A stretch of DNA of 64,000 nt from NCBI GenBank assembly GCA_015178975.1, contig WHVD01000154.1, forward strand, positions 1-64,000. Direction: 5' to 3'. Both the position numbers and the translations under genes were made by a program. Positions 1-57,880 of this stretch are shown here, in pieces. The notes under the pieces were generated by a model that saw nothing but the letters and a program-made list of their open reading frames with translations, was not told the origin of the DNA and ran no database searches. The DNA comes from Hysterangium stoloniferum. Taxonomy: Eukaryota > Basidiomycota > Agaricomycetes > Hysterangiales > Hysterangiaceae. Numbering within the stretch: the first letter of the stretch is position 1; the number at the start of each line of letters is the position of its first letter.

Positions 1-2076
1 ATGCCGATCGGCATTCCAGGAATTGAAAAGTGCGTTTACATCCGCCCCTATTTTGTCGCACTGGAAACCCGACGTTCAACTCATCGTGGAAACTGATGCT
101 TCGGACTATGCGCTTGCCGCGATATTGTCCATTCTGGACACTGATGGTGAAGTACACCCAGTAGCTTTTCTGTCTCACACATTTTCGGCGCCCGAACTCA
201 ACTACGACGTTCACGATAAGGAATTACTCGCAATCTTTGAAGCTTTCAAGACATGGTGACATTATTTGGAGGGCTCGGCCCACCTGGTAGATGTTATTAC
301 AGACCACAAAAATTTAGTTTACTTTTCAACCACAAAACTTCTCACCCGTCGACAAGCTCGATGGTCCGAATACCTCTCCGCTTTCAACATGGTAATTCGC
401 TTCCGTCCCGGCCGCCTTGGTGGAAAACCCGACGCTATGACTAGACGATGGGACGTCTATCCTAAAGAGGGGAGTAGCGACTACGCCACAGTTAATCCGC
501 ATAATTTCAAACCTATGTTTTCATCGGAACAACTGTCCGCATCTATCCGAGCCACTTACCTCATTCATCCAGTCTTGCGAAGTGTTATCCTTATGGATAC
601 CGAAAAGTTACATCAAGATATACTATCGGCAATTCCATTAGACCCAGTCACCAAAGCACACTCGATAACCCGTCCGACCCCGATCAGCCCCGATGGTCAT
701 TAGACTCACAAGGTTTCATTCGACTTGACAATCGCATTTATGTACCGGATTCCGACACCCTTCGGCTGCGAATCCTACAACATAAGCACGACCACCCAAT
801 CTCAGGACATTTCGGCCTCAATAAGACCCTCTCACTCATTAGAAGAGAATATACATGGCCCGGCATCCGAGATTTTGTTAAGCACTATTGTAAATCCTGT
901 ACTACGTGTTTACGCTCTAAATCACAGCGACACAAACCATATGGCCTACTCAAACAATTACCGATACCGGAAAAACCTTGGAACTCGATTTCTATGGATT
1001 TTATCGAGCACCTACCGGCATCCGAAGGTCACACAGCAATCCTAGTTGTTGTGGATCGGCTCTCAAAGCAAAGTATTTTCATTCCAACATATGACACGAT
1101 AACATCTGTACAGTTAGCTGAATTATTCGTTACCCACGTATTCTCCAAGCATGGCGTTCCGTCGCATGTCACATCCGATCGCGGATCCGAGTTTGTCTCT
1201 CACTTCTTTAGGTCACTCGGAAAAGCACTAGACATGAAGTTACATTTCACTTCGGGCTATCACCCGGAAGGTGATGGACAAACCGAACGCATGAATCAAA
1301 CCTTGGAGCAATACATCCGTGTCTATTGCAACTATCAACAAGACAATTGGAAATCACTACTACCGCTGGCCGAATTCGCATACAACAACGCACCGAATGC
1401 CACTACTGGCATTTCGCCTTTCTTCGCAAATAAAGGCTACAACCCCAACATCGCAATCCACCCGGAACGCGATCTCGCATCCGCCCGTGCTCAAGACTTT
1501 GTTACAAACCTCGAAGAGCTACATCAAGAACTTCGTAAAACTATCGCAATGGCTCAAGAACGATACCAACGGTCTGCGGATAAAAACCGACTTCCACCTC
1601 CTGATTTCAAGATCGGAGACTGAGTATTCGTTAAAGCCGAGTTTTTCCGAACTACTAGACCTTCTAAGAAGCTCTCTGAAAAATATTTAGGTCCTTTTGA
1701 AGTTATAGCACAAGCCGGCACGCTTTCATGGACGCTTCGGCTCCCCGACAACATGCGTGCAGTGCACCCGGTATTTCATGTATCTATGTTAGAACCTTGT
1801 GTTCCTAACAATATACCGGATCGCATACAGCCACCACCTCCACCCGTGATTATTGATGGGGAACCCGAATTCGAGATATCAGAAATCCTAGACTCAAAAA
1901 TCGACAATCGCCGACGCTCATGCAAATTACTTTATTTGGTCAAATGGGCTGGCTATGAAGGTACAGATGAAGAAACTTCATGGATCCTAGCTACAGAGCT
2001 CGGTAATGCCTCGGAAATCGTTTTAGGGTTTCACCAAGCTTATCCGAACAAACCCGGTCCTCTCAATTCCTTATAA
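1..2076 (+). pseudogene. gypsy pol 3' part: RNase H, integrase, chromodomain
   Basis: C-terminal part of a gypsy polyprotein. RNase H is at about 60-450 (TDASDYALAAIL motif). The integrase zinc region (H-H-C-C) is at about 780-915. The integrase core has the DRGSEF aspartate near 1180 and the DGQTER glutamate near 1275. A chromodomain (EISEILDSKI to LVKWAGYEG) is at about 1870-2010. The frame is broken by TGA at 257-259, by a one-base shift near 660, and by TGA at 1621-1623. The GyA2 copy at 53-56 kb reads through the corresponding positions of the first two of these breaks. The C-terminal part would act in the nucleus, where chromodomains of this class guide integration to chromatin. This copy is not functional as read. 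Confidence 0.88.
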
Positions 2077-2172
2077 GTCTATCACGCGGTACCCGACCTT
2101 TTTCTGACTATGCCTTATGTTTTCATGCTATGATTTGTTTGTTTAAAAAGAAAAACCGATATATTTCACTAT

Positions 2173-3097
2173 CTAAGTTTCTCCCTCTACAACTTCTCCC
2201 TCCTCTCCGACCTCCGAACCCTCCTCCGCACCGACAGCCACCGATACCACACCACCGACCTTCTCCGAAACCCCAATTTCATGCCCACCGCAACTCGAGA
2301 CTTCCAAATACTGCTCAAGTTGACCACCGAGAGACTCGATAACACTGGTTTGTTTCTCCAGCCCGACGCCCAAGAGTCGCAATTGCTCAGTTATGAGCCC
2401 TTGTTGTCGCAACATCTCATATCGGTACCGACTTGTCTCCGAGAAGTAGGTCCGCATGAGGCGGTTTTGCTCTTCTAGAGCATCGGCCTGTCGCTCCTGG
2501 AATGAGCCATCGGCCCCCGGGAAAACACACCCAAGCTTCTGATCAGCGCACTCTTGACAAGTGCGGCCCTGACCATTGGTCCGGGGATGACAGGTTCGAC
2601 CCCGTTTCGTGCACCGATTGCACTTGGGGTCATTTTCGGGCCCCGCCTTGGGGGCCTGCTTTTGTTTCTATAGAAAAAAATTATTTAGGAAGTTTTTTTT
2701 TAGGAAACCGAACCCACCTTGGGGCTCGATGGCCCCGGTGCATCCTCCTCGTCCTCCTCTCCCTCTTCGTCATCGGACTCCGAAGGCGTTGCAGCCTTGC
2801 GCTAACAGATATTGTCAGTAAGGTTCGCAAAAGACACCAGAGCCAACTCACTTTTCCCTCCCGCTTCTTTTTCGTCGCCTCCTCCCGCGCCCAATCGGCC
2901 TCCTGCTGCTTGTTCTTTGCAAGCACTGCTTCCCAGTGCTTGCGTGCGGCCTCTTCTGCCGCCTGTTTCTTTTCCTCGGCCTCGATGGCCGCCAATTCCT
3001 CCTTCTCTTTCCGCTCCTCCTCTTCACGCGCCTTTTTCTTCTGCTCGAGTATACGCCGACGCTCCTTCGCGTTCGCCGTACCACTCGGCGCCGACAT
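2173..3097 (-). CDS. antisense Zn2Cys6-like coiled-coil protein gene of GyA1
   Basis: A three-exon gene on the strand opposite to pol, lying between the pol stop and the 3' LTR. Exons are 3097-2852, 2801-2718 and 2667-2173; introns are 50 nt each with GT...AG ends, and all three exons are whole codons (82+28+165 including stop). The 274-aa product has a charged coiled coil (residues about 10-82, many E/K/A), an acidic linker, then cysteines at about 126, 129, 136, 147, 150 and 157. That is CX2CX6CX10CX2CX6C, the spacing of fungal GAL4-type binuclear zinc clusters. A glutamine-rich helical tail follows. No premature stop is seen. The same gene with the same exon plan sits in GyA2 (55982-57103). 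The start lies about 230 bp inside the 3' LTR, so antisense transcription from that LTR is a plausible promoter. The function is unknown; DNA binding is inferred from cysteine spacing only. Confidence 0.75.
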
Positions 3098-3324
3098 GGG
3101 CGCAACTGTTAACCTAACTGGGAAGGGCTTTGACCCCGAGCCTATGGTCATGGTGGTTAAAGGAAGGGAAGTGGAATTTCAAGCGCCAGGAACTCTCAAA
3201 CTTTTATATGCAAACTTTTGCCGAGTCACATGATGTTTGACACACCCAGCCGTACCCGACAAGTTTTTACGTACGGGATCTAGATTTTCGGCCTCCTTGG
3301 GATTTCGGCCAAAAGGGGAGATAC

Positions 3325-4044
3325 TGTTATGACCGTGTCGCAACCCTATCGGCCCCGAGGTTATCGCCACTTGTCAACGTTTCAAGTCATCCTCTCGGAA
3401 ACCATCGGCCCCGAAGCTGACGAATGTTTCGCGAAGATCAAACTCCATTTACGCCCACGTCAAATAACTCGTATTGTCTGGTCAAACTTTGATACGTCCC
3501 CTTTATTATGTTGATCCGTTCAATCTTATGTTTCGCATATGTCTATCTATATTTGTAGTCCTCGAACCATTTCCTTTTACCGTAATCCCGCTCTTGGTTA
3601 TCATCGGCCTCCGAACTAATCATAAACTTCCCGTTCCTAGTCAAGCTTATTGTTAATACCGTGTTCCACCCTTCTCCCCATTAGTATTTTCCAGACGCCT
3701 GTTACTTGTATATGAACCCGCTGTAATTGTAGTTACTAGGCAATCAGAATATCGACTCAGAATACCCTCATACGTCTGTAGCAGTCTCATACTAGAAGAA
3801 CCCCCTTCCGCCTTCGCGTGCGCTCGCCCATTCTCGGCCCGATCCCTTGGCCCGACACTTGACCTGTCCTTCGGTTCCGATCGGTATCTCACCAAAAGGT
3901 CCTTCTTAGGATATAGTCTTTGCCTGTCCGAAATTTAAGGACAACCTACAGATATTTGCGAGGGCGCAGCACATAAGCTGAAGCCAAGTCCTTCCGATCG
4001 GTCCCCGTCGGCCACTGACATTAGTCAGTTTCCAGTTCTTAACA
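3325..4044 (+). repeat. 3' LTR of GyA1
   Basis: A 720-bp LTR starting TGTTATGACC and ending TTCTTAACA. It is preceded by a purine tract (AAAAGGGGAG). Related solo copies occur at 19128-19863 (plus strand) and 21736-22479 (minus), with diverged or shortened copies at 9696-10651 and 24884-27081. It contains the shared motif CACATAAGCTGAAGCCAAGT about 55-80 bp from its 3' end. Confidence 0.9.
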
Positions 4045-6272
4045 CATACCCGGAACAGGATCGATGTGTGTCAGTGTCGCCTGCATAGTCAGCATCAACA
4101 TACCCAACTGGCATGATATCCCTATGCAAACCCCCATAGGTAATGCCATAGTGGAGTGTCCCCTTAATGTAACGTAGAATGTGTGTCAAAGTGTTCCAGT
4201 GAGCTCTTCCTGGGTTTGAGGCGAACTTACTGAGTGTGGAGACCGCATATGAGAGATCCGGGCGTACATAATAGACCCCAACAACTCACAGTATGGCTTA
4301 TCCGCAATGAAGATGTGGTCCTCCACTGTCTGAGGCACCTGCTCCTTGTTCAGTGCGATGCCTGGTGGTAGTGGTGTGGTGCGGGGGTTTGATTCTGTCA
4401 TGCCGAAACGTTCGAGAATACGTTCAAGGTATGCACATTGTGATATTCTAATCGTTCCTTGCTCCCTATCTCTGTCAATTCGTATTCCTAGGACTAAGTT
4501 GGCGTCCCCAAGATCCTTTGTCTCATAAGTCCATCCTAGCTCTTCCTTGGCCCGTTTTGCTTCTTCTACAGATGATGAAATTCCGGTTGTGTCATCAGTG
4601 TAAGTACTCGTTATGGTTGTGTTGCCATTCGCGTGTTGGGATCGTACGGAAGGATCAGCCTTTGACCAGTAGTCTCCTAGTTCACCCATTTCTCTGTCCA
4701 GCGTCCCCCACCAGTTGTTAGCACCATCCATTGTGCCGTATAACATCCTTTCTAGTCGACCTACTTTTCCGGCCTCCTTTGCTCCATCAGGTAATTCTAT
4801 GTGTGTTATGGCTTGTGGGACGGAATTGAGGTATGCTGCAACATAATCAGCTTGCCATGCCTCCATGTTAGTGGCAGCAGCAATAGCCAGGTTCATCCGC
4901 AGCGACTCATAGCACACAACTGAAGTATATGTTTCGAAGAAGTCGACACCGGGAATTTGTGTGAAGCCTTTCGCTACGAGTCGTGCCTTGCGTGAAGTGA
5001 GTTCACCATTGCCATTGTATTTGCTTGCGAAGGAGTCTGGCATCTGTAGGGCAATCCATTACCATCCAGACCCCATGTTTCCTCATTACAGCAAGTTCCT
5101 TGTTGATTGGGCCCTCCCATATATTGGGACGTGTCATTGCCTCGCTGTATGTATTGGGGAGCCACATGTTCGTCGGATCTGGCATTGTTTTCACGTCAGT
5201 GTGAAAAGCACTATGCGTTCTGTCATCTGCCCACGCTTCCCCTGCCGCCTGTGCATTTCGGATTTCGTTCTCTGAATTAATAGAGTCTTTGAGTGCCTGT
5301 GTTGGTACAGGGACATGCAGTGAGCGACGTGGTGCAGGTTCAGTGATGGTTGGTTCTGAAGCAGGCTGGAGTGAGATGTTGGTTGGAAGGGTATGGTCGT
5401 GCATGGGTGCTAACCCCCTGTAAATCTCGTCTGGATTCTTGCTAACTGGTGTGTCAAGGATCACATGGTCAGTATGGTGCATTTCCCCCTCACCCAAAGA
5501 CTCAGTCAGTGTCTTATGACTACGTCCTTCCTCAAAGATGACGTCGTGTGAGCGAAAAATGTGGCGGGTATCTGGGTCGTATATCCTGTAAGCGTCATGC
5601 CCAAAATATTCAATGTGGATCCCCTTGATTGACCATGGGTCCAGTTTACTGAGTCCGCCTCCAGCTTCAACTGGGATCTTTGCATAGGCTACGCAACCAA
5701 GAGGTTGCAGGTGAGAAATGTCGGACTTTTTGCCATACCACAGTTCGAATGGGGTCACATCTGGGTTTCTACTGGTGGGAATAAAATCCATCACGTATGC
5801 AACTGCCGCTGCAATTTCACACCACAATGTTGGGGGTAAGTTGTTTTCATATAGACAGATGCGGACATGTTCGATAATGGTGTGATGACACCGCTTGACA
5901 ACACCATTGGATGACAATGAATATGTGGTTGTGCTTTCATGTACTATACCCTGTTCACTGAGGTATGCGGTCCATGAAGAGTTGACGAATTCTGTGCCTC
6001 CATCTGTGCATATAGTGCGCACCTTCGTTCCTGTCTGTCGTTCAGTGAGTGCTGTATAGTGTTTCAGTGCCGACAAGGTTGTCTCAGCCTCTTTATTCGA
6101 CATGAAGAATACCTCCTGGTGGCCACTATACCCGTCAACACATGGCATCATATAACTCCTACCACCGATGGACTGTACTCGTGACGGCCCCCACAAATCA
6201 ACATAGGTGCGTTCTCCAGTTGTTGTCTCACATTCATCATTAATATAGAATGGACGGCATGTGTGCTTCCCT
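4045..6272 (-). pseudogene. copia pol: integrase, reverse transcriptase, RNase H start
   Basis: The integrase core is in the piece 6196-5003: DGGTEF gives the second aspartate, and the position of the catalytic glutamate reads SNGVVKR, so lysine replaces glutamate. It is followed by the copia-type linker (WYGKKSDISHLQPLGC). The reverse transcriptase is in the piece 5043-4186 (RKARLVAKGFTQ, then YTDD at the active site). A one-base shift near 5040 separates the two. The frame then continues to 4045 with a copia RNase H motif (GYVDADYAGD) and stops at the GyA1 insertion. The glutamate loss and the frameshift make this copy inactive. Confidence 0.85.
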
Positions 6273-6273
6273 A

Positions 6274-6804
6274 TTATACAGCTGGCATTGATGCAATCAC
6301 AATTGTGCAGAAAATACGGTCATCCATTTGTCCCCCTTGAACATTGACCTTCGCCCATCCCTCACGCAACTGTGAAAAATGGGATATAATGTCTGTGCCA
6401 TAGATATTCTTAATAGCACGAAGATTGTTGTCGGCATTGAGCAGGCCTATGTCATAAGATGTGCTGTGGACCTCCTTTAGAGCAGACCATGCTTCGCCTG
6501 CAGTATCTGTGGATTGGATGCCATGCCCGACTGGGTTTTTTACATTCAGGTCAATCATTGATTTTGCATATGCATTGCACTGTTCCCATTCCTCAGGTGA
6601 GGGGTTTCTTGATCCCCAGTAACTCGTTGGTGTGGGTATGGAATTAGGTGTGAGTGGAGAAGGCTTCTGAATGGTCCCATCCAGATACCCTTGGACACCT
6701 CGTGCACCTGCAGCTGACCAAATAGTATTATGCCATGTAAGCCAGTTGTGTCCTTCAAAATGGTCCTCAGATTGCAGCATGAATAGGGCTGGCTGGTTAG
6801 ACAT
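6274..6804 (-). CDS. copia gag, N-terminal part
   Basis: A 176-aa open frame starting MSNQPALFML, with the copia gag pattern HNWLTWHNTI (N-terminal gag domain) and the later stretch DTAGEAWSALKEVH and ISHFSQLREGWAKV typical of the UBN2/retrotrans_gag fold. The normal C-terminal zinc knuckle is absent because the copy is deleted between gag and integrase. It forms the particle coat in an intact element. The start codon lies about 130 bp downstream of the primer binding site. Confidence 0.75.
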   Translation of the reverse strand: MSNQPALFMLQSEDHFEGHNWLTWHNTIWSAAGARGVQGYLDGTIQKPSPLTPNSIPTPTSYWGSRNPSPEEWEQCNAYAKSMIDLNVKNPVGHGIQSTDTAGEAWSALKEVHSTSYDIGLLNADNNLRAIKNIYGTDIISHFSQLREGWAKVNVQGGQMDDRIFCTIVIASMPAV

Positions 6805-6819
6805 GTTTGATGGGGGTTT

Positions 6820-6861
6820 GGTCAGTTGGGGTCGGTCAGTTGGGGTCAGTCAGTTGGGGTC
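6820..6861. repeat. short GGTCAGTTGGGGTC tandem repeat in copia leader
   Basis: Three imperfect copies of a roughly 14-bp unit, followed by related GGGGTC words to about 6890. It lies in the untranslated leader just upstream of the copia gag start. Confidence 0.7.
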
Positions 6862-9695: not shown

Positions 9696-10651
9696 TATTA
9701 AGAACAGAAAGGTGACTAAGGTCAGAAGACCAACAGAGGCTGAATGGAAGGACTTGGCTTCAGCTTTTATGCTATGCCCTCACAAGTTACCATCAGGTGT
9801 CCTTAAATTTCAGGCAGGCAAGAACTAGTCCTGTCATGCAATCCTCATGGTAAGTCACCGATTGGAAGCCAAAGGATATGTTGAGGGTTTGGTCAGAGGG
9901 TCAGAGAGTCAGAGGGTCAGAGGGTCAGAGAGTCAGAGGGTCAGAGAGTCAGAGGGTCAGAGAGTCAGAGAGTCAGAGAGTCAGAGAGTCAGAGAGTCAG
10001 AGGGTTGGAGAGTCAGAGGTTTGGAGAGTCAGAGGGTTGGAGAGTCAGAGGGTTGGAGAGTCAGAGGGTTGGAGAGTCAGAGGGTTGGAGAGTCAGAGGG
10101 TTGGAGAGTCAGAGGGTTGGAGAGTCAGAGGGTCAGAAACTGAGTGTGAGTGAGCACAAGCAGAGGTGGAGAGTGGATACTTAGAGTGAGACTATGAGAG
10201 TTATTTAGGGGTGTTCTGAATTGATATTCTGATTGCTTAGTAGCTACATTACAGCAGGTTTATATATGAGTCATCAGCATCTAGAAAGTACTAACTAAGG
10301 GAAGAGCGGAAATGCCCCAATGACAAATAAACTTGACCAAGAACAAGAAGGTTACAATAAAGTCAGAGGCCATGAATAACTGAGGGTGATAACTACAAAA
10401 AAGGAAACAGTCCACAGTATATATGGGCATGGGTGAGACATAGAATAAATAGATCATCAAAGGATAAAGGGACATATCAGAGTATGACCAGATAGTATGA
10501 GTATAATTTAACAGGAGCTGTAGCAGAGGTTGATCACCATGATGGTGTACATCAGTTGCAGGTTTACTGATAGTGGCTGATATGAAGATGTGACAATAAC
10601 TTGAGGTGATAGTGTCATCGGTTATCTTTGGGTTGTGACACCATCATAATA
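9696..10651 (-). repeat. diverged GyA1-type solo LTR, minus strand
   Basis: It follows the minus-strand GyA1 LTR in order: TATTAAGAAC start, GGACTTGGCTTCAGC near 9750, and TTGTGACACCATCATAA near the end. The putative target duplications TATAC (9691-9695) and CATAC (10652-10656) match at 4 of 5 bases. It is longer than its relatives because of the tandem repeat at 9896-10136. Confidence 0.65.
9896..10136. repeat. 8-bp/16-bp tandem repeat GTCAGAGG / GTTGGAGAGTCAGAGG
   Basis: An array of 8-bp units (GTCAGAGG, GTCAGAGA), turning in its second half into regular 16-bp units with GTTGGAGA. It sits where the related LTRs have a single GGGGTCAGGGA word, so it is an expansion inside the LTR. Open frames across it are low-complexity artefacts. 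Confidence 0.9.
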
Positions 10652-24959: not shown

Positions 24960-26566
24960 CAGTGGGTCAAAAAACTGCCCCAATGTTTATGCATTTTAGA
25001 AAGATTGATATTGTGTGAAGGAATGACATCAGCAGAAATTCTGAAAAATTCACATGATATACTAGAACATGTTGGCTATCTACCAACTTAAGAAATCATG
25101 TGATTCCAATCAAAGCTCATTGCTCAATAAATCAAACAAAATAATCACTCATTGGGGCAGTTTTTTGACCCTCTATTATTTTCTCTGATTTTCAATGTTA
25201 CACACCAGTATAAGGTAGGAGTGGGTCATGTGAATCATCAACATATCATGTGACCTTATTTGTATCAATTTGGCATGTTGAACTTTGTTCATTCATCTCC
25301 TTGACTCCTTACCACCACTATGAAATCCATCTCTGCTGAAAAGCATTCTTCTGTTGTTTCTCTCCTCAATGAGGGATATTCCCATTGTCAAATTCAAGCT
25401 AGGACTGGCCTGGGGAAGGGTATTATTGGCTGGATCAGTAAGGAGGTAGAGGGGGATAAGGAAAATCATCCTGGTGGCCATCCTTCCAAGCTTTCCCTTA
25501 TGACAAACAGTCAATTATCTGTCAAATCAGCTCTGGGAAGCTTGACAATGCTGTCCAAGCCACCTAATTCATAAATTCCATCATATCTACCTCTGTCACT
25601 CCTCATACTGTTAGGAATGTGTTGAAAGAAGCTGGCTTTAGGTCAGCAACAAAGAAGAAAGTCCCTATGCTCAAGGGGTCTCATTGTCAGCAATATCTAA
25701 AGTTTGCCCAATACCATGAAAATTGGACTATGGAGGACTGGAAGAGGGTGTTGTGGACTGATGAGACAAAAATCAATAGGATTGGGTCAGATGGAAAGGT
25801 ATATGTTTGGAAGCAACAAGGGGAACCAGTATCAGACAGGACCACCACACCAACTGTCAAACATGGAGGGGGGAATAACTTGATGATTTGGGGGTGTATG
25901 GGCTGGAATGGGGTGGGGAAGCTGATAGAGATGCAGGGGAACATGGATGCAGTGCAGTATTGTGAGATTTTGGAGGAGGGAGTGGAGGAGAGCATTGAAA
26001 GTTTGGAGATGGCTGAGGATAAGTGGTACTTCCAACAGGACAATGATCCAAAACATACCTCAAAAAAGGCAGACCAGTGGTTTTCTGACAATAACATCAT
26101 TCCCATGAAGTGACCTGCCCAATCCCCTGATCTAAATCCCATTGAACACCTCTGGCAACACCTCAAGGCCAAACTCCAACAATATGACATACCACCCAAA
26201 GGAGTACATGAATTATAGGACAGGGTGGCAAAGGAGTGGACTGAAATACCACCAGAGACATCTCAGAAGCTAATAGAAAGCATGCCTAAGAGGATACAAG
26301 CAGTTTTAAAGGCAAAGGGGCGTCATACAAAGTATTAGATTGTAAAATAATAGAGGGTCAAAAAACTGCCCCAATGAGTGACTATTTTGTTTGATTTATT
26401 GAGCAATAAGCTTTGATTGGAATCATATGATTTCTTAAGTTGGTAGATAGCTAACATGTTCTAGTATATCATGTGAATTTCTCAGAAATTTTGCTGATGT
26501 AATTCCTTCACACAATATCAATCCTTCTAAAATGCACAAACATTGGGGCAGTTTTTTGACCCACTG
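24960..26566 (+). mobile_element. Tc1/mariner element with 223-bp terminal inverted repeats
   Basis: A 1607-bp element flanked by TA (24958-24959 and 26567-26568). The terminal repeats, 24960-25182 and 26344-26566, both start CAGTGGGTCAAAAAACTGCC. Each repeat also ends, on its inner side, with the complement of the same word (GGCAGTTTTTTGACCC). It encodes one broken transposase gene. The symmetry may extend a few bases outward (CATA), so the exact edge is uncertain by 2-4 bp. Confidence 0.92.
25320..26336 (+). pseudogene. Tc1-type DD34E transposase, broken
   Basis: N-terminal helix-turn-helix part at 25320-25574 (VVSLLNEGYSHCQIQARTGLG), stop, then a shifted frame from 25619 with the catalytic domain: WTDETKINRIGSDG (first Asp), QQDNDPKHTS (second Asp), SPDLNPIEHLW (Glu), with 34 residues between the second Asp and the Glu. 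TGA at 26111-26113 replaces the tryptophan usual before PAQSPDLNP, and TAG follows near 26218. It would cut and paste the element at TA sites if intact. This copy has at least one frameshift and three stops. Confidence 0.85.
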
Positions 26567-27342: not shown

Positions 27343-28698
27343 TGTAATGTATTCAGGGGATTCTCTTAGATAGCTCAATATATGCTATAGTGTCACAGAG
27401 CTTCAACAATAAAACAAGCAAAGGTCCAGTAATTTAAATACTGATAGATTAATGAGCTGCACTATGAAGCTTAAACAACTCAAATCAATGCTTATTTTGA
27501 TTATTGAAAGGTTCAATAGAACTGTGTATGACTCTTTTAGCAAATACAAGAACTATTCCTTGAGAATAGGGGCTGGAAGCTGAATATATGCGCAGTAACT
27601 TGGCAGAGACTTGATATAAGAGCTTCGGATTCTTGTATGCTTATTTGTAACTATTAATAGTTATTTAACAAGGTGTTAAATAATTTATTAATAGAGAAAA
27701 TAAATTGTATTGGATTATCTAAGTGCTTGTACTTGATTAATTCAATAAACTTAGGGCTGGGCCTTGAATAATCTAGTATTGGCAGGGATTTCAGTAAGGA
27801 TACTTAGATACTTATTAGGTTTATTATCTAATTAATAAGCCTAAAGGGTAGCTGTGAGGCTGGGGAACTTAGATGATTAGCTAAGTTCAAGAGTTGCTGA
27901 CAAAGATTCAAGATGCTGCAAGTGTAGGTGCTTGCAGTGAGTGTATCAGACTAAGGCTATTATTGTCCTTAGGATGATGAGGTAAGCTTCTGTGCTGTAC
28001 TGTAAAATATGTGTGTGATAGATTGGTTTTATTGGAAACTTGGCCCTCCTTATATACATTTTGCTAACTCAATGATTAGCTAACTATTTAGTTTATGAGG
28101 TCATTAGTGAGATCATAATGACCTCACATTCTACTCATTATTTACCCTTTGTTTAACATGTGATTCCCTTCTCTGAGACAAGGGTTCTAACCTCTTGCTT
28201 GAACATGAAGGTTCAAGGCCGCGGTCCCGGGACGGGAGCAAACCATGAGTCGGCGGAACCTAATAATGACTCGGGTAGTCACGTTCGTGACTTGTGTGCC
28301 TCGGGTAGTCACATTCGTGACTTGTGTGACTCGGGTAGTCACATTCGTGACTTGTGTGACTCGGGTAGTCACATTCGTGACCTTTGTGACATCCCGACAC
28401 TGGAGGCTTATGTAATAAGTCACATGACTCCAAAAATGTGCAAACTAGGCTGCACAAGGTGCCGAAAGGTAATAACTAAGTAAATAAAATATAAATAATT
28501 AGTTAAAAATTATAATAAATTAACTAAGATATAATATCATAATATGAGTTCATCTATGCTATTATTTATGCGAAGTTAAAAGGAATAAGGCCTATTTTTC
28601 ACAATAAACCTAATAAAAATACAATAGAAATTCGAGAAAATATTAAATAATTCAAAGAAAATTAAGAGAATATTATGAGATAATGTTGATACATCACA
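27343..28698 (-). repeat. GyB 3' LTR
   Basis: 1356 bp; on the minus strand TGTGATGTATC to ATACATTACA. The right LTR adds up to 1266 bp; the 90-bp difference equals three 30-bp units of the tandem repeat at 28267-28386. A GC-rich block (CCGCGGTCCCGGGACGG) lies near 28219. Confidence 0.85.
28267..28386. repeat. 30-bp tandem repeat, four copies
   Basis: Four copies of a unit containing CTCGGGTAGTCACATTCGTG. GTCAC and GTGAC within each unit form a small stem. The right GyB LTR has a single copy (46443-46472), so this is a recent expansion. Confidence 0.9.
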
Positions 28699-29167
28699 CC
28701 ATCCAAGCCTCAAGTTTTAAACCATTCTTTTGAAATGTATCGAACCATTGAGCTACAAAGGTTCTAGAACCAGTGACGAGCAAAGGGTTGGTTCTGAGAT
28801 CTTGATGGTTTCCGAAAGGTGCAGGCGTTATACAAAGTTCACGAAACTTCCCTTGGGGAATAAAATAAGAAATAGTAGAGTCGGAAAGGATAGGAGTGTA
28901 ATTATCTGCTGCAATACAAGTTAATTTAACGTTCGAGAGATGATACTCCCAAAGATAATACACCAGAGACTCTCGAATGCGATAGACTTTGACTCCATTG
29001 TATTCAATAGGAATCCAATCGTATTCATTAAGTCGATAATGCAGTGGTTTTCGGGTAGGATTAAGTGTATGAGAAACTAGTACTTTGTTTTGTGAAAGTT
29101 TCCCTTCAACGATTTTGATAGAATAGTCCAATCCGGTGACCGGGGAGAGCTCCATACGAAATTCCAA
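28694..29167 (-). CDS. accessory open frame of GyB, unknown function
   Basis: A 157-aa open frame between the chromodomain end of pol and the 3' LTR, on the sense strand of GyB. Its stop codon (TGA) lies within the first bases of the LTR. The sequence (start MEFRMELSPVTGLDYSIKIV, with IPIEYNGVKVYRIRE and TSYFIPQGKF-like segments) has no signal peptide, membrane segment or zinc motif that can be seen. It is uninterrupted while gag and pol are broken. It occupies the place where env-like or other third frames sit in some gypsy elements, but it does not look like an envelope protein. The start could be later (second Met). Confidence 0.55.
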   Translation of the reverse strand: MEFRMELSPVTGLDYSIKIVEGKLSQNKVLVSHTLNPTRKPLHYRLNEYDWIPIEYNGVKVYRIRESLVYYLWEYHLSNVKLTCIAADNYTPILSDSTISYFIPQGKFRELCITPAPFGNHQDLRTNPLLVTGSRTFVAQWFDTFQKNGLKLEAWMV

Positions 29168-29263
29168 ACTTTTTTGATGTGGAATAGTTTTCTTTTACTT
29201 GAATATATAAGAATGAAAGAAATAATAGCGCATATAGGGTGCATATATTGATGTTTTGGTTAT

Positions 29264-50365: not shown

Positions 50366-50930
50366 TGTTACGACCCGTTCCCAGATGTTTCAATATCCGA
50401 CTTCCGATCTCCGACTTCCGACTTCTGATCCCCGACTATGGAACATCATAGTTACCGTACCATCCACATTCTTCCCTTGTTCCACATTTGGTAATTTGTC
50501 CGTTGACAAGTATTCACTCGTTTGTTTGTTGTATTCCCATTTCGGAATATTGTCTCCCTAATATGTCTTATTGTATTTCCGTTTTAAGAACACTTCCGTT
50601 TCCGTCTTATTATGGTCTCAGTTTGTAGTACAATAATGAGTAGACTTATATTAGTTTCCGTGAATTTGTACTTTACCTTAGATCTGATATCGACTTAGTT
50701 TCTTATTCCTCCTCCGTCTTTCTGTACACTCGATATTCGGAACTCTTCGGAACTCTGAATATCCATATCTTCCATTGTAAGTTTTACTTCTGAAATTAAG
50801 GACATTGAGCATTTGCGTAGAGGCACAGCACATAAGCTGAAGCTGACGTCCTGACCCTATCCACGAGTTTCCGACTTCCCGGTGACTTTCCGATAGTTTC
50901 CGGAATAAGTTCCCGACACGGCACTTAACA
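50366..50930 (+). repeat. GyA2 5' LTR
   Basis: 565 bp, TGTTACGACC to GCACTTAACA. It differs from the 3' LTR by few substitutions and by fewer copies of a TCCGACTTCCGA-type word near its start. Confidence 0.95.
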
Positions 50931-50964
50931 GTATATCAGATCTCAACTCTGCAACTCGCTCATC

Positions 50965-52194
50965 ATGGGTCCCAAATGCAAAGCTGCTGAAGGACCATCC
51001 CAACTTCAATCCCCGTTGCAACTTTACACTACTCAATCCGAAACCCCTTTTCAGCCGACAACATCAGCTTCAGTTGAAGAAGTTACCGAGGAGGTTACCG
51101 AGGTAACAAAGGACACCAATGTTCCCCACACTTCTGACAACGAAGCAGAAGATCAGCCAGAGACATCGAAAAAGAAATCTTCCGATGAACCGACTGAAAT
51201 GTTGTTTATCAACTCCATCGTGAAATTCACTGACTATTTGAAATCCGCTGAGGATAGTAAAGAATCTTCCCACACTGGAGTCAAAGAACCCGAACCATTT
51301 ACCGGCAAGGATCCGAAAAAATTGAAGAATTTCCTTCTCCAATGCCGTTTCAGTTTCCGTGATCAACCCAATGCTTTTAAATCCGACAGTCGAAAAGTCA
51401 ATTTCGCACTCTCTTATCTCAAGGATACCGCTCAAGATTGGTTCGAACCTGGACTATCTGGAATATCCGACGAGACACCCGTATGGCTTGACGACTGGGA
51501 CGCTTTTGTGGAAGAACTGGAGACTAATTTTGGACCTTACGATCAAACCGGCGAAGCGGAAAATGAATTAATGACGCTCAAGATGAAGGACAATCAACGA
51601 GTTTCTGATTATCTCGTCAAGTTCAATACCCTCGCCGCACGATGTGGATGGGACGATTCCGCCCTCAGACACCATTTCTATATGGGACTTCCGTCACACC
51701 TGAAAGACGAAATCTGCAAAGATGGAAAGCCGAAAACTCTCCAACTCATGCAGATGAAAGCTCAAACATCCAACACCCGTTATTGGGAACGAAAAGCTGA
51801 GGTTTCTCGAGAAAATCCGACGGAACGTTCTCAGAACAACAAGGCGTCGACTAGCAAGTCTTCCGGCAACAACTCAGGCAATAACACCGGCAACTCTGGC
51901 ACTAATACTGGCAAATCAAACTCCGACCGGAAAAAAGACAAGAAATCCAACAAGGAAAAACAGTCCACTTCTGACAAACCCGACATTTCCCATTTGTTGG
52001 GTACTGACAGTAAACTCACCCCGAAGGAGAAACAACGACGTATGGACAATGACCTCTGCCTTTTCTGCAGGAAAGGTGGACACAAGGTTTCCGACTGTAC
52101 CGTTAAATCTAACTCTTCCAAGGCCCGCGTGGCAACTTCCACTATGACTACAACGTCCAAGGAAAAACCCACCACGGAGCCGAAAAAAGAGTAA
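50965..52194 (+). CDS. GyA2 gag
   Basis: An intact 409-aa frame. The N-terminus is Ser/Thr/Glu-rich. The central retrotransposon gag fold has [29 protein letters not shown] and [19 protein letters not shown] low-complexity Ser/Asn/Gly/Lys linker follows, then one CCHC zinc knuckle, [14 protein letters not shown] (about residues 368-381), which binds RNA in particles. The start is 35 bp after the LTR. The frame ends at TAA 52192-52194 just after six A residues; pol continues in the -1 frame. Confidence 0.92.
52183..52194 (+). promoter_or_regulatory. possible -1 frameshift site between gag and pol
   Basis: Gag codons CCG AAA AAA GAG TAA. The protease frame, one base back, is open across this point (EKR-V-S-N-P) and onward to the protease motif. 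A slip on the A6 run would give the gag-pol fusion. Confidence 0.4.
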
Positions 52195-55100
52195 GCAACC
52201 CTCCGGAATCTGCACGGACAGAGGGTTGCGTTGACTCTCTCCGTGTTTCCGAGGTTATCCGTCTCAATGCATCTGCTCTCTCTAATCCCGATTCATTATT
52301 TGTAAAACTCGTTTCTGACTTTCTTGAAAATTTAGTGTTCCGAGCTCTAATAGATTCTGGCTCCACACACTGTTTTGTAGATACCACCTTTGCCACGAAA
52401 CATAATCTGAAACTCCATTCTGTTCCCACAATTTCCTTGCGTCTGTTTGATGGCACTAGCAATATGGCAATTACTCAAGCCTGCAACATGTCTATCCGGT
52501 TCCCTTGTGGAACATTCCAGACGGTTACTTTTTTCGTAACACAGTTGGACTCTAGCTGTTCGGTAGTTCTTGGATACAACTGGCTCACCCGATATAATCC
52601 ATTGATTGACTGGGTATTGGGCAGTATTAATTTCTGAATTCCCGACACTTTGGTTCCTCCTGCAGCGTCTCTTCCGGCCAATGCCTTTTCAGCATCTATG
52701 GCACCTCCGGCTTCTACTGAAACCTCCGCGCCTCCAAAAATCTCTCTTATCAACGCTTCGGCATTTGTTAGGGCGAGTAAACTGGATCGTTCACAGTGTT
52801 TTTCAATCAGCTTAAAAGTTGATGAAGCATCTGGAGTTTTGCGACTCCAGAATTATCCGAGCTAAAAGCCGACCTGGAAGGAGTTCCCGAAAAATATCAT
52901 GATTTCGCGGACATTTTCAGTAAGCAAAAAGCTGACCAGCTTGCACCACATAGGCCTTACGACCTAAAAATCGATATTGAGCCCAGTTCAAACCCTCCGT
53001 TAGGACCTATTTACCCATTATCCCAATCGGAACTTTCGTCTATTCGGGAGTTCCTGGATGAACATTTGTCGATAGGTTTTATCCATCCCTCAAAGTCTCC
53101 GTATGGAGCACCTGTCCTTTTTGTCCGAAAGAAGGATGGCTCTCTTCGACTATGTGTCGATTTCAGAGGATTAAATTCCATTACATGGAAAGACAAGTAT
53201 CCACTTCCACTCGTTACCGATTTACTCGACGCCCCACGGAAAGCTCGGATCTACACCAAAATAGACCTCAAACACGCCTATCATTTGGTCCAAATTGCCG
53301 AGGGTGATGAATGGAAAACTGCTTTTCGGACTTGCTATGGATCCTTTGAATGGTTGGTTATGCCGTTCGGCCTTACCAACGCCCCTTCCGCTTTTCAATG
53401 TTTTGTTAACGATATATTTTCCGACATGCTTGATGTATGTGTTATAGTCTATTTGGACGACATTTTGGTATTTTCCGAGGATCCCGCTCTTCACGACAAA
53501 CAAGTCCGTGAAGTTTTCCGAAGACTCCGTAAAAACGGTCTTTTCGCCAACGGTAAAAAATGCTACTTTGACATGGATTCTATTGAATACTTAGGTTTCA
53601 TTATCAGACCTGATGGTCTCCGTATGGATGAAACCAAAATTCAAGTTGTCCGTGATTGGCCCGAACCACAGAAAGTCAAGGATATTCAGTCATTTTTAGG
53701 TTTCACCAACTTTTACCGTCGTTTTATTCAGAACTACTCAGATATTACAGTACCGCTCACTCGTCTTACCCATAAAACTCAACCATGGGTCTTTGACGAT
53801 AAATGCCAATCCACCTTCCAGACTTTAAAAAATGCTTTCACTTCTGCCCCAATCCTTTCCCATTGGAAACCTGATGTTCCGATTATTGTGGAAACCGATG
53901 CTTCCGATTATGCAATTGCCGCGATTCTTTCCATTCAAGATTCCGACGGTGAAATTCATCCGGTCGCATTTCTTTCTCGGACACTTTCAGTATCCGAACT
54001 CAACTATGACATTCATGATAAGGAACTTTTGGCAATTTTTGAAGCTTTTAAACATTGGCGCCATTATCTCGAAGGTTCCTCAACTCCTGTTGATGTTGTT
54101 ACCGATCACAAAAATCTCGAATATTTTTCTACCACTAAACTTTTAACCCGCTGGCAAGCCCGCTGGTCTGAATTCCTTTCTGCTTTCAATATGATTATCC
54201 GTTTCCAACCCGGACGTCTTGGTGGAAAACCAGATGCCATGACTCGATGATGGGACGTCTATCCTAAAGAGGGGGAAAGTAATTATGCCATTGTTAATCC
54301 GCATAATTTAAAACCGGTTTTTACAATGCAACAACTTTCCGCATCTATCCGAGCAACTTCCCTCTACTACCCAATTATGCGTAGCGTCATGATTATGGAC
54401 ATTGAGGAATTACATCAAGATATCCTTTCCGCACTCACTTCCAATCCGGTTCTCAAGCCACACCTAGAAGTTCCTGACAATCCGGACCAACCCCGATGGT
54501 CACAGGACTCTCAAGGTTTTATCCATCTCGATGGAGGTATCTACGTTCCAGATTCCAACAATCTCCGACTCCGCGTACTTCAGTATAAACACAATCATCC
54601 AATCTCCGGACATTACGGCATTAACAATACTCTTGGTTTAATCTGTAGAGAATATACATGGCCCAACCTCCGAGATTTCATAACCCAGTTCTGTAAGTCA
54701 TGCACCACCTGCTTACGCTCTAAGACCCAGAGGCACAAGCTGTACGGCCTTCTCAAGCAACTCCCGATACCAGAAAAACCCTGGAATTCAATTTCCATGG
54801 ATTTTATTGAACAACTCCCGACTTCCGAAGGCTTTACATCCATTTTAGTTGTTGTGGATCGATTCTCGAAACAAGGCATTTTCATACCCACTCATGATAC
54901 AATCACGTCCTTACAATTAGCAGAACTTTTCATTATTCACGTATTTTCCAAACACGGAGTTCCATCTCACATAACTTCCGATCGAGGCTCCAAGTTCATC
55001 TCCCACTTCTTCCAGGCCCTCAGAAAAGCCCTCGACATGAAACTACACTTCACCTCGGGATATCACCCGGAAGGTGATGGACAAACGGAACATGTAAATC

Positions 55101-55879
55101 AAACATTGGAACAATATCTCCGCATCTATTGCAATTATCAACAGGACAATTGGAAATCCCTTCTTCTGATCGTGGAATTCACCTACAATAACTCCCCGAA
55201 TGCAACTACCGGCGTATCTCCTTTCTTCGCCAACAAAGGCTATAATCTGAATCTCACCGTACATTCTGAATGAGATTTGGCTTCTGTCCATGCTCAAGAA
55301 TTTATTACCGACCTCGACGAATTACATCAAGAACTTCGGAAAGCTATTTCTTCCGCACAGGAATATTATCAACGTTCCGCGGACAGAAACAGGATCCCGC
55401 CTCCTAACTTTAAAATCGGTGATCAGGTTTTTGTAAAAGCTCAATTCTTCCGTACTACCCGACCTTCTAAAAAACTCGCTGAGAAATTCTTAGGACCTTT
55501 TGAAATTATAGCACAAGCCGGTTTACTCTCATGGACTCTCCGACTTTCCGATAGTATGCGAGCAGTTCATCCCGTTTTCCACGTTTCCATGTTAGAACCC
55601 TGTGTCCCTAACAAAATCCCGGAACGTATTCAACCTCCGTCCCCTCCAGTCATTATTGATGGAGAACGTGAATTTGAAGTTTCCGAAATTTTGGATTCTA
55701 AAATCGACAATCGCCGACGTACTTGTAAATTGCTTTATTTAGTCAAATGGGCAGGCTATGAAGGTACCAACCAGGAAACTTCATGGATATTGGCCACGGA
55801 ACTTGGACATGCTATGGAAATTGTTACTGACTTCCACATGGCTTATCCAAGTAAACCCGGACCTTTATCATCACTCTAA
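52195..55879 (+). pseudogene. GyA2 pol: protease, RT, RNase H, integrase, chromodomain
   Basis: Protease [13 protein letters not shown] near 52345-52385. TGA at 52635-52637, then the linker in the same frame; a one-base shift near 52830 enters the RT frame. RT has YLDD near 53450; RNase H has ETDASDYAIAAIL near 53900. TGA at 54248-54250, where GyA1 has CGA. Integrase: zinc region H-H-C-C (54590-54715), core aspartates and glutamate (DRGSKF; DGQTEH). TGA at 55271-55273. Chromodomain FEVSEILDSKI to LVKWAGYEG (55675-55765). Catalytic residues are all present, so the stops and the one shift are what disable it. Confidence 0.92.
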
Positions 55880-55981
55880 CCCTTTCCTGTTTTCTTTCTG
55901 TTCAGTTTCCGACACTCCCGACACTTCCGATATCACACTCATTTTAGGTTTTGCAAGTCAAAAAAAAAAATATTATTAGGA

Positions 55982-57103
55982 CTATTTTAAAGTCTCTGAT
56001 ATCCCAAATCCACCTTCCGGCTCTTCAGCAATTTCCGCACTTTCCACCATATCCTGCACCTCTTCATCCTCACTCTCTGATTCTTCCGGTCCATTTCCTG
56101 ACTCCCACCTTTTTTCAACACTTTCCACCAATGGATCATTAGGCTTTTCCCGTGCCTTATCAGAAAACCTCTCGGATACTGCGATAACACCAATGCTAAC
56201 CATTATCTTCTCCAGGAAATCATTTTGCCTCCGGAAATTTCGGATTAACGAATGGAAACCTTTCTCCTGGATATCATTATGGCGATCCATTGTGTCCCGC
56301 ATTTTCATGACTTCCGTCCCGATAAAAACCAACGCGTCGACGGTTTCCTTGAGGAGCTCAATGCCCGTCATATCCGTTTTCGGCATCTCAGTTTCCGCAG
56401 CTTTGGCCGCTCCTGAACTTCCCGCATCGTTAGCTTTCGGAGTCTTCTCACCTTTTGGAACCCTTTTCGAGGCGAGGGTGCACGGAAGTTTGAGAACCGC
56501 ACAGGGATAACAAGTTCCACCCCATTTTACCTTCTGTTTCCAACATGTCATATTCCATATGGAACATCGATAACACGGAGTTTCATGGTCGATTTCCATC
56601 TGTTCCAGAGCCTTGACCTTTGGTTTCTGTTTCGGAAGTTAATTCAAATACCGACCTTTTGTAGATGTACTTACTTTAGGACTTGAAGGTCCAGCCTCTC
56701 CCTCCACCTCCATCTCCACAGCTTTTCACTGTATCAAAAGTTATCAGTCGGAACCACGGAAAAAATGGATCAAACTTACTTTTCCTTCCCTTATCTCTTT
56801 CAGTTTTTCCGCCATCTCTGACTCCCGCTGTAACTTTTCCGCCTCTTCCTTCTTTTTCTGAGCCTCCGCCATTTTCCAGATCCACGCTTCTTTTTCCACT
56901 TTCGCCCGCTCCAACTCCCGTTTTTCCGCCTCTTCCGCATCTTTCAACTCCTGCATCAACACCTTCTCCTCCTCTTCCTGTCGTTGCTTCAACTCCTCCA
57001 TCCTTTGTTGAAGTTCTGCGACCTTCGACATCTTTTGTAGAATGGCAATTTCGGTATCTGAGTCTTCCGGGGTAGTGATGAATAACGGCCGACGAATCGA
57101 CAT
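55982..57103 (-). pseudogene. antisense Zn2Cys6-like coiled-coil protein gene of GyA2, one stop
   Basis: Exons 57103-56780, 56728-56675 and 56626-55982; introns 51 and 48 nt; codons 108+18+215. The only defect is that exon 2 opens with TGA (56728-56726), where the GyA1 gene has CGC (Arg). The product (340 aa if read through) has an N-terminal coiled coil (ELQQRMEELKQRQEEEEK; residues about 30-108), then cysteines at about 144, 147, 154, 165, 168 and 175 (CX2CX6CX10CX2CX6C), a linker, and a second helical part (MKMRDTMDRHNDIQEKGFHS) with an acidic tail. The exon plan, intron phase 0 and cysteine spacing match 2173-3097, although little else is identical. It starts about 185 bp from the 3' LTR. 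The gene is convergent with pol. The role is unknown. Confidence 0.75.
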
Positions 57104-57286
57104 ACAAGTTGTGGATAAAGAAACAAAAATGTTAATCGAATATTTGGAGGTTTTTATACTCAGCACATTAGCCGAAACTCTCACCTCCAGAATTGCGTAA
57201 ATTTCACGACACATAATAATCAGCCGTCGCTTCAATCACTCAGTACCTAATCGCCTCTATGGGATTTCGGCCTAACAGGGGGGTAC

Positions 57287-57880
57287 TGTTACGACCCATT
57301 CCCGGATGTTTCAATATCTGACTTCCAATCTCCGACTTCCGATCTCCGACTTCCGATCTCCGACTTCCGACTTCCGATCCCCGACTATGGAACATCATAG
57401 TTACCGTATCATCCGCATTCTTCCCTTGTTCCACATTTGGTAATTTGTCCGTTGACAAGTATTCACTTGTTTGTTTGTTGTATTCCCATTTCGGAATATT
57501 GTCTCCCTAATATGTCTTATTGTATTTCCGTTTTAAGAACATTTCCATTTCCGTCTTATTATGGTCTCAGTTTGTAGTACAATAACGAGTAGACTTATAT
57601 TAGTTTCCGTGAATTTGTACTTTACCTTAGATCTGATATCGACTTAGTTTCTTATTCCTCCTCCCGTCTTTCTGTACGCTCGATATTCGGAACTCTTCGG
57701 AACTCTGAATATCCATATCTTCCGTTGTAAGTTTTACTTCCGAAATTAAGGACATTGAGCGTTTGCGTAGAGGCGCAGCACATAAGCTGAAGCCGACGTC
57801 CTGACCCTATCCACGAGTTTCCGACTTCCCGGTGACTTTCCGATAGTTTCCGGAATAAGTTCCCGACACAGCACTTAACA
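57287..57880 (+). repeat. GyA2 3' LTR
   Basis: 594 bp, TGTTACGACC to GCACTTAACA. It is longer than the 5' LTR by extra CTTCCGATCTCCGA-type words at about 57325-57380. Confidence 0.95.

Follow-up and report, generated by a model that had tools for sequence, protein, structure and literature searches.

An antisense accessory gene carried by a lineage of gypsy chromoviruses in Hysterangium stoloniferum appears, on balance, to encode a DNA-binding regulator of its own element, as judged from sequence comparison. The gene was studied in a window, by which we mean the whole stretch of 64,000 nucleotides that forms the start of contig C62 (genome 111 Mb). This contig begins inside the pol of the carrier element, which belongs to a family designated A. 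The role of antisense accessory genes in LTR retrotransposons has been open since their discovery in plants, mainly since little about an activity could be read from the proteins. The Hysterangium gene resembles a well-understood class of DNA binders and has candidate target words, so that the question can be reduced to a binding test. The coordinates are collected in Table 1.

Table 1. Features of the family A element and of the window's family C element (positions in the window)
Feature	Position	Strand	Remarks
Pol 3' part, family A gypsy chromovirus	1..2076	+	RNase H end, integrase, SH3, chromodomain
Exon 3	2173..2667	-	six-cysteine cluster, long helix, acidic tail, stop
Six-cysteine cluster CX2CX6CX10CX2CX6C	2527..2622	-	
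Intron 2	2668..2717	-	50 nt, GTGGGT..TAG
Exon 2	2718..2801	-	acidic stretch, GPSSPK
Intron 1	2802..2851	-	50 nt, GTGAGT..TAG
Exon 1, with corrected (probable) start at 3151	2852..3151	-	Glu/Ala/Lys-rich, coiled-coil-like by eye
Spacer, gene start to 3' LTR	3152..3324	-	purine-rich tract at LTR end
TATA-like box	3203..3208	-	57 nt upstream of start
3' LTR, family A	3325..4044	+	720 bp, TGTTA..TAACA, rich in CCGA/TCGG
Gag-pol open segments, family C gypsy chromovirus	50929..55880	+	
Family C antisense gene	55982..57103	-	exons 57103-56780, 56728-56675, 56626-55982; one in-frame stop; cysteine spacing of A
Family C 3' LTR	57287..57880	+	594 bp, rich in CGGAA/TTCCG

The pol adjacent to the gene was broken by two stops and one frame change, as had been described (ORFs 2-259, 260-703, 505-1623 and 1624-2076). 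The rve, Integrase_H2C2 and Chromo domains were found in it above the Pfam cut-off, and the integrase followed by a C-terminal chromodomain identified a Ty3/gypsy chromovirus. Homology among most copies ended at about 4044, and the 3' LTR of family A was redefined as 3325-4044. Three copies (L059-L061) had two LTRs each, about 7 kb apart. The LTR pair of L059 was 99.3% identical, with GATCA at both flanks as a target-site duplication. The pairs of L060 and L061 were 96.9% and 95.4% identical and showed no matching duplication. In addition, a gag-pol fragment on the minus strand (4045-6849), which we take to be copia-like, ran up directly to where the family A LTR ends, and the family A element seems to have inserted into this fragment.

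The gene model of the original prediction was reproduced on the minus strand, with three exons (3097-2852, 2801-2718 and 2667-2173; 246, 84 and 495 nt, stop counted), two 50-nt GT..AG introns, 274 aa without internal stop, and the spacing CX2CX6CX10CX2CX6C at residues 126-157. The exons, the introns and the frame stood, and the ATG at 3097 was the part that did not. The frame upstream of this ATG was open and conserved across copies. In place of the Met at 3097, L047-L049 had Ala and L050 had Leu, and the Met aligned to 3151 was kept; therefore, the gene probably starts at 3151 and encodes 292 aa. A database gene model, P0002, also began at the Met equivalent to 3151. Splice sites in other copies were read by projecting the structure of the window's gene through one alignment. 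All 50 copies, with the window's gene counted in, had GT and AG aligned at the splice sites, and intron lengths were 50-56 nt (intron 1) and 46-60 nt (intron 2). The gene is probably spliced. Of the 50 copies, 29 were intact, by which we mean that a Met was present at the corrected start, exons 1 and 2 were open, exon 3 reached at least 150 aa and both introns had GT..AG. The cysteine spacing was readable in 43 of the 50, and the other seven were decayed. On the sense strand over the gene, all three frames contained stops in every one of the 50 copies.

A protein search of the genome with the antisense gene gave at least 228 matches, counted exon by exon. Fifty gene loci were read, namely the 30 best matches (the window's own copy included) and 20 across the more diverged ones. 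The gene was antisense to a chromo-pol match in all 50. The nucleotide match to the window ran beyond the gene into the LTR in 48 loci, the exceptions being L027 and the decayed copy L052. The reverse test started from a search with the chromodomain region (150 matches listed), from which 20 loci without a nearby gene match among the matches listed were read. The gene was present at all 20, with all three exons in 15 and part of them in five (L065, L069-L072). The 50 and 20 loci, which are part of all copies in the genome, all had the gene in the antisense position between pol and 3' LTR. The claim that the gene is part of the retroelement was thus borne out from both directions, and other gypsy copies carrying it were found.

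The gene was also compared across families. Family B (L047-L050; further examples are L062-L064 and L066) was 91-96% identical to A in the chromo part, and exon 3 was only 61-64% identical. The chromo part of family C (L078-L081) was 87% identical to A, and its antisense gene was only 32% identical overall. However, its place, strand, two intron points and cysteine spacing were as in A, and it was intact in all four copies. The second gypsy chromovirus of the window (50929-57880) belongs to family C, and its gene was about 30% identical to the family A gene. Six control loci were read, L082-L086 and a third gypsy of the window (win_gypsy3, ~29264-34887). An antisense zinc-cluster gene was not found in five of the six within the stretch examined. 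The control L086 did carry one and was designated family D. The family D gene agreed with A in place and strand, had three exons and the spacing CX2CX6CX8CX2CX6C, encoded 206 aa in L086 and 242 aa in L087, and was dissimilar to A; the second intron donor of L087 was not GT. The family D cluster piece gave 108 genome matches. Nine of them paired with a listed integrase match on the opposite strand at 1.8-2.8 kb (by eye, start to start). The third gypsy chromovirus of the window, of another family and on the minus strand (28694-34887), had an extra sense ORF after the chromodomain (28694-29194, 166 aa), and no antisense zinc-cluster gene was found in its checked part.

Selection was monitored with dN/dS (NG86). 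The values were below 1 and not near 1, in agreement with the proposal that the gene is selected. Among 28 pairs of eight intact copies they were 0.12-0.48. Ten copies of diverged subfamilies (families A/B) gave 0.10-0.46 in 45 pairs, a set in which three copies contain stops, stop codons were skipped and dS was >1, near saturation, in several pairs. Pol gave 0.05-0.38 in the same 45 pairs. The antisense frame +1 gave 0.67-1.51 and frame +2 gave 0.23-0.55; the latter was below 1 too, yet it was above the gene frame in 45 of 45 pairs. The family C gene gave 0.15-0.33 in 10 pairs that included the window's own family C copy, and the family D gene gave 0.19 in a single pair. By these codon comparisons, the antisense gene is under purifying selection on its protein. 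The original argument from a clean gene beside a broken pol in the window gives weak evidence for selection, because the copies read first were picked by similarity to the gene.

Relatives of the protein were also sought. Protein searches, one of which scored 8000 candidates sharing most words, gave only two matches, both H. stoloniferum gene models, and a scan of viral contigs for relatives of the antisense protein gave no match. The two models, P0001 (BU17DRAFT_68404) and P0002 (BU17DRAFT_70826), are annotated as hypothetical proteins and look like decayed copies of the antisense gene. P0001-like pieces, each 78-98% identical, were found on contig C537 (71926-72972). Repeats are usually masked before gene annotation. 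Because of this masking and the limited scoring of candidates, the lack of protein-database relatives outside the species does not mean that the gene is absent elsewhere.

The original prediction had placed antisense transcription possibly in the 3' LTR, and this was not supported. Between the gene and the LTR, 43 of 50 copies had a TATA[AT]A box, at a distance of 56-59 nt upstream of the start. The LTR was set aside as antisense promoter because this box lies outside it. The box was missing in seven copies (L023, L027, L047, L048, L049, L052 and L057), among which were three of the four family B copies. Family C copies had TATAAAAA in the spacer between gene and LTR. In the family D copy L086, no TATA-like box was found in the 120 nt upstream that were examined. 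The LTRs of A, B and C had seemed to share a conserved palindrome, CCGATCGG, which was ruled out; the shared tail was a neighbouring insertion beyond the family C LTR, which is 583 bp in L078.

The divergence between families was concentrated in one block. Family A (window 1427-4044) and a family B copy (L062) were compared per 60 bases. The identity was 0.92-1.0 in pol to about 1850 and 0.83-0.90 to about 2030. From about 2030 to about 3526, over the gene, the spacer and ~200 bp at the start of the LTR, it was 0.48-0.78, with one block of 0.88 at the LTR boundary. The remaining LTR was at 0.88-0.97. Another family B copy, L050, had much the same profile against A. The drop over gene and U3 indicates that both diverge, or were exchanged, as one block. 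In addition, within a pair of A and B copies the antisense gene had a dS several-fold above that of pol (1.68 vs 0.28 for L010-L047). This high gene dS points to an exchange of gene and U3 as a block between the families, or to their faster joint divergence. Such a block would fit a regulator and its control region. However, a template-switch exchange without function would be predicted to give the identical picture.

The zinc-cluster class of the protein was examined next to known domains. GAL4-type regulators share a range of six-cysteine spacings, which is defined for Zn(II)2Cys6 (PF00172) as CX2CX6CX5-12CX2CX6-8C, and the C3-C4 loop of GAL4 itself has 6 residues. This spacing was found in all four families, with a loop of 10 residues in A, B and C and 8 in D. 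The whole family A protein matched nothing in Pfam at E<=1. Pieces of 71-73 aa matched Zn_clus with E values of 0.17 (A), 0.64 (B) and 0.16 (C) and scores of 12.5, 10.6 and 12.6 bits, under the gathering score of 21 bits. For the B and C pieces no Pfam family other than Zn_clus was listed, and for the A piece it ranked second to DUF6310. For the whole family C protein, Zn_clus was not listed and the best Pfam match was DUF3744 (E 0.0021). A cluster profile of the four families was searched against all PDB sequences. The only matches at E<=10 were PPR1 (1pyi, E 0.071) and LAC9 (1cld, E 0.19), both GAL4-type domains. In hhalign, the A-D profile scored 28.6 against four host Zn2Cys6 domains, a score reached by none of 60 permutations with the cysteine columns fixed. 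The family C cluster alone gave a match probability of only 3% against the host domains. In AlphaFold models of exon 3, confidence was confined to one long helix that follows the cluster (residues 54-124 in A and 84-158 in C), and pLDDT over the cysteine cluster was mostly <50. Basic segments and the long helix flank the cluster. The protein resembled PPR1 and LAC9 in having its cysteine spacing within the family range and a long helix after the cluster, and it differed from GAL4-type regulators in the loop of 8-10 residues and in a score under the Pfam cut-off. The predicted zinc-cluster DNA-binding protein was therefore supported by the spacing and by the two PDB matches and weakened by the Pfam score. 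The protein is likely Zn(II)2Cys6-like and probably dimeric. We kept the class at likely, short of proof, since the Pfam scores were below threshold, the PDB matches were weak and the cluster had no confident model.

Each carrier family appeared to be enriched in its own CpG-containing word beyond codon usage. The words were CCGA in A and B, CGGAA in C, and TCGA/GTCGA in D, all of which contain CpG. CCGA was the most enriched CpG tetramer (strand-collapsed) in all nine A, B and C segments tested, at 1.9-3.7x. The corresponding values were 0.83x for the eight host zinc-cluster loci examined and 0.92x for the copia fragment. In the remaining window (12000-50000) CCGA was at 1.75x, second to CCGG. 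Scans of all words gave CCGA in A and B, CGGA/GGAA and CGGAAG-like words in C, and TCGA/GTCGAA in D. Against a dinucleotide shuffle, CCGA in A had z of 4.6 (LTR), 5.9 (gene), 6.5 (pol) and 8.7 (gag-pol), and in B 7.0 (LTR) and 3.5 (gene). CGGAA in C had z of 10.8 and 9.3 (LTRs), 5.3 and 6.3 (genes) and 5.9 (pol). In D (pol, gene and 3' part), TCGA had 4.4, 3.4 and 3.3, and GTCGAA had 1.0, 7.5 and 9.0. Some cross-enrichment was observed, with CGGA at z 4.0 in A gag-pol and CCGA reaching 4.0 in the pol and 5.1 in one LTR of C. Two controls were above z 4, CGGAA in the L082 3' part (5.0) and CCGA in win_gypsy3 gag-pol (4.4; 29 vs 14.1). A codon shuffle of the 1021-aa frame of win_gypsy3 reduced the latter to 19 vs 15.9 (z 1.0). 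The L082 value was rejected as a counterexample, as it came from a solo family C LTR in which all eight CGGAA/TTCCG sites listed for L082 lie. This LTR (L082:2035-2578), 93% identical over 515 bp, had inserted into the 3' part of an unrelated gypsy.

The coding enrichment was tested with synonymous-codon shuffles, in which the protein and codon usage were fixed (300 shuffles). In A, CCGA was observed 69 times vs 42.0 in gag-pol (two L059 frames; 0/300) and 23 vs 14.7 in the gene exons (0/300). In B it was 14 vs 8.1 (3/300). In C gag-pol, CGGAA was 32 vs 16.9 (0/300) and CCGA was 57 vs 44.9 (6/300, z 2.4); in the C gene exons, CGGAA was 12 vs 5.9 (1/300). In D, TCGA was 27 vs 17.0 and GTCGA was 10 vs 4.4 (0/300 each). 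For the pols of four pooled controls (L082, L084, L085 and win_gypsy3; 7,281 nt), all six words had z <=1.2, and a fifth control, L083, showed no word enrichment either. The family D pol (L086:1-1122) was enriched in GATC also (15 vs 7.3, 0/300).

A stricter correction used the maximum over all words, counting how many of 200 shuffles reached the best word. In the noncoding parts, the counts were 22 for the A LTR (ATCGG), 4 for the B LTR (CCGAC), 0 and 0 for the C LTRs (CGGAA) and 13 for the D 3' part (GTCGA), so that the A LTR and the D 3' part were not significant alone. The noncoding controls gave 0 (L082, with the nested C LTR), 148, 3, 148 and 0. In the coding parts, the A 829-aa ORF gave CCGA at 0, A gag CCGA at 49 and B chr CCGA at 39; C gave ATGG at 16 (gag), CGGA at 8 and GGAA at 59; and D gave GATC at 0. 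The best word was thus ATGG in C gag and GATC in D coding sequence. The coding controls gave 18, 31, 51, 7 and 36. Low counts among the controls were GTCAC in the win_gypsy3 3' part (0/200, perhaps a simple repeat), ACGTG in the L084 3' part (3/200) and CAGA in L085 coding sequence (7/200). Finally, labels were swapped at synonymous differences between families, the third segment being left out of the A-C swap (7/130 identical codons). TCGA was favoured in D (0/500 vs A, 1/500 vs C), CCGA was weakly favoured in A when compared with C (37/500, 43/500), and no significant preference for CGGAA in C relative to A was seen (153/500, 127/500). Families A, B and C are related and give few independent cases, the controls represent about three gypsy families, and D itself was first picked as a control. 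A family-specific short word accumulated in the encoding element was found, with mixed results in the label-swap and maximum-corrected tests and with words that are not fully private to one family.

These results suggested a model in which the gene would be transcribed from its own promoter in the spacer before the 3' LTR and then spliced. The basic patches, six-cysteine cluster and long helix point to a nuclear, dimeric DNA binder of the Zn(II)2Cys6 type. This protein would bind the short CpG word that is enriched in its own LTR and body, namely CCGA for A and B, CGGAA for C, and TCGA/GTCGA for D. Binding might mark the own family for expression, with the protein acting as an activator or an anti-silencing factor. 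Protein and sites would co-evolve, and the divergence of gene and U3 as one module would then be expected. If the words are its sites, retroelements, like plant DNA transposons, would encode sequence-specific recognition of their own family, and the words would form a natural series for studying how DNA-binding specificity and sites change together.

The best reading of this regulator is possibly VANC-like. VANC of Arabidopsis VANDAL transposons is described, in the part of the report covered, as binding short words that are specific to its own family and have accumulated there, and as causing methylation loss (PMC5735166). The likeness lies in an element-encoded, here putative, DNA binder, in short words of its own family, and in a protein and words that diverge between related families (PMC5735166). 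The differences are that VANDAL is a DNA transposon and that the VANC words, as that part of the report describes them, are in non-coding, often tandemly repeated parts (PMC5735166). In contrast, the Hysterangium case is a retroelement with words in coding sequence too, and its binding and demethylation are predictions. Pfam scans of pol, the family A protein, the A, B and C pieces and the whole C protein listed no VANC family. In its specific form, the antisense protein would bind its CpG word over LTRs, genes and gag-pol and shield the element from silencing based on CpG methylation, and word and protein would have switched together at least twice (CCGA, CGGAA, GTCGA). We regard this form, the boldest one, as less likely than not. 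Fungal TET/JBP genes are located in DNA transposons, and the survey, in the part covered, reports no case in a retrotransposon (PMC12730594); a retroelement route against methylation would fill this gap.

Family-specific words in LTR, gene and pol would not be expected from a general helper protein, nor would the linked divergence of gene and U3. Both observations bear on a reading in which the protein serves another step of the life cycle, as a helper of the preintegration complex in nucleic-acid binding or nuclear import, or as an integration-targeting factor, and the word enrichment is unrelated. Some plant antisense ORF proteins are nuclear, and such roles are proposed for them in the part of the review covered (PMC7264820). 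The basic segments and long helix around the cluster would also suit a helper, and specific DNA binding by the cluster is itself a prediction. We consider this reading rather unlikely.

A captured host Zn(II)2Cys6 gene could instead act on host genes, for example by altering host physiology or silencing genes to the benefit of the element. The genome contains many Zn2Cys6 domains (at least 42 PF00172 matches). However, all copies read adjoin gypsy pol, the protein searches returned only the two gene models of the same species, and the host zinc-cluster loci were not enriched in CCGA. Host capture is improbable on these grounds. There is also little probability in a self-limiting repressor for copy-number control, which would bind its own family in LTR and body and lower the expression of that family. 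The same sequence pattern would be expected of it, and HBZ, encoded antisense in a retrovirus, represses sense transcription. However, selection within the genome should favour the loss of a self-repressor acting in cis, and the gene was kept in families A to D. A reading in which the antisense RNA is what counts and the protein is incidental, or in which the open frame arises from some other constraint, is highly improbable despite antisense non-coding RNAs described for other retrotransposons in the part covered (PMC7264820) and the low dN/dS of frame +2, given the still lower values of the gene frame, the values of frame +1, the aligned splice sites despite variable intron length and the absence of an open sense frame.

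The regulator reading was compared with other antisense genes of LTR elements. Antisense additional ORFs between pol and 3' LTR (aORF-3R) are described, in the parts of two reports covered, for maize Grande (gene23), rice RIRE2, Silene Retand and bean PvRetro13 (PMC7264820; PMC11963269). They are alike in place and strand, in being kept in most copies and in the nuclear or DNA-binding role suspected for the plant ones (PMC7264820; PMC11963269). Those plant ORFs for which the parts covered name a domain have TRP28 (PF04195) or SMC-like domains. The Hysterangium gene differs in its Zn(II)2Cys6-like cluster, two predicted introns, measured purifying selection and fungal chromovirus host. The brtn gene of Boty-like retrotransposons was reportedly described by Zhao et al. 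(2011, Virology 417:248). It is an additional antisense gene of these elements in Botrytis cinerea, according to the parts of the sources covered (PMC8365987, PMC4227169, PMC7264820). It is likewise an antisense gene in a fungal chromodomain-bearing LTR element. HBZ of HTLV-1 is spliced, runs antisense and lies between the coding region and the 3' LTR; it starts in the 3' LTR and encodes a nuclear coiled-coil bZIP regulator. By layout alone it is similar, being antisense, spliced (here predicted) and placed before the 3' LTR; it differs as a bZIP started in the 3' LTR, whereas the candidate promoter in Hysterangium is outside the LTR. Antisense accessory ORFs were thus already known. Among the titles and abstract openings searched, a coverage with most subscription papers outside it, we found neither a Zn(II)2Cys6-like antisense retrotransposon gene nor private words in such elements.

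Two further features of the window were observed. A long array of 8-bp tandem repeats at 9832-10184 had all three plus frames open, and an ORF at 25568-26113 resembles a Tc1/mariner-type transposase.
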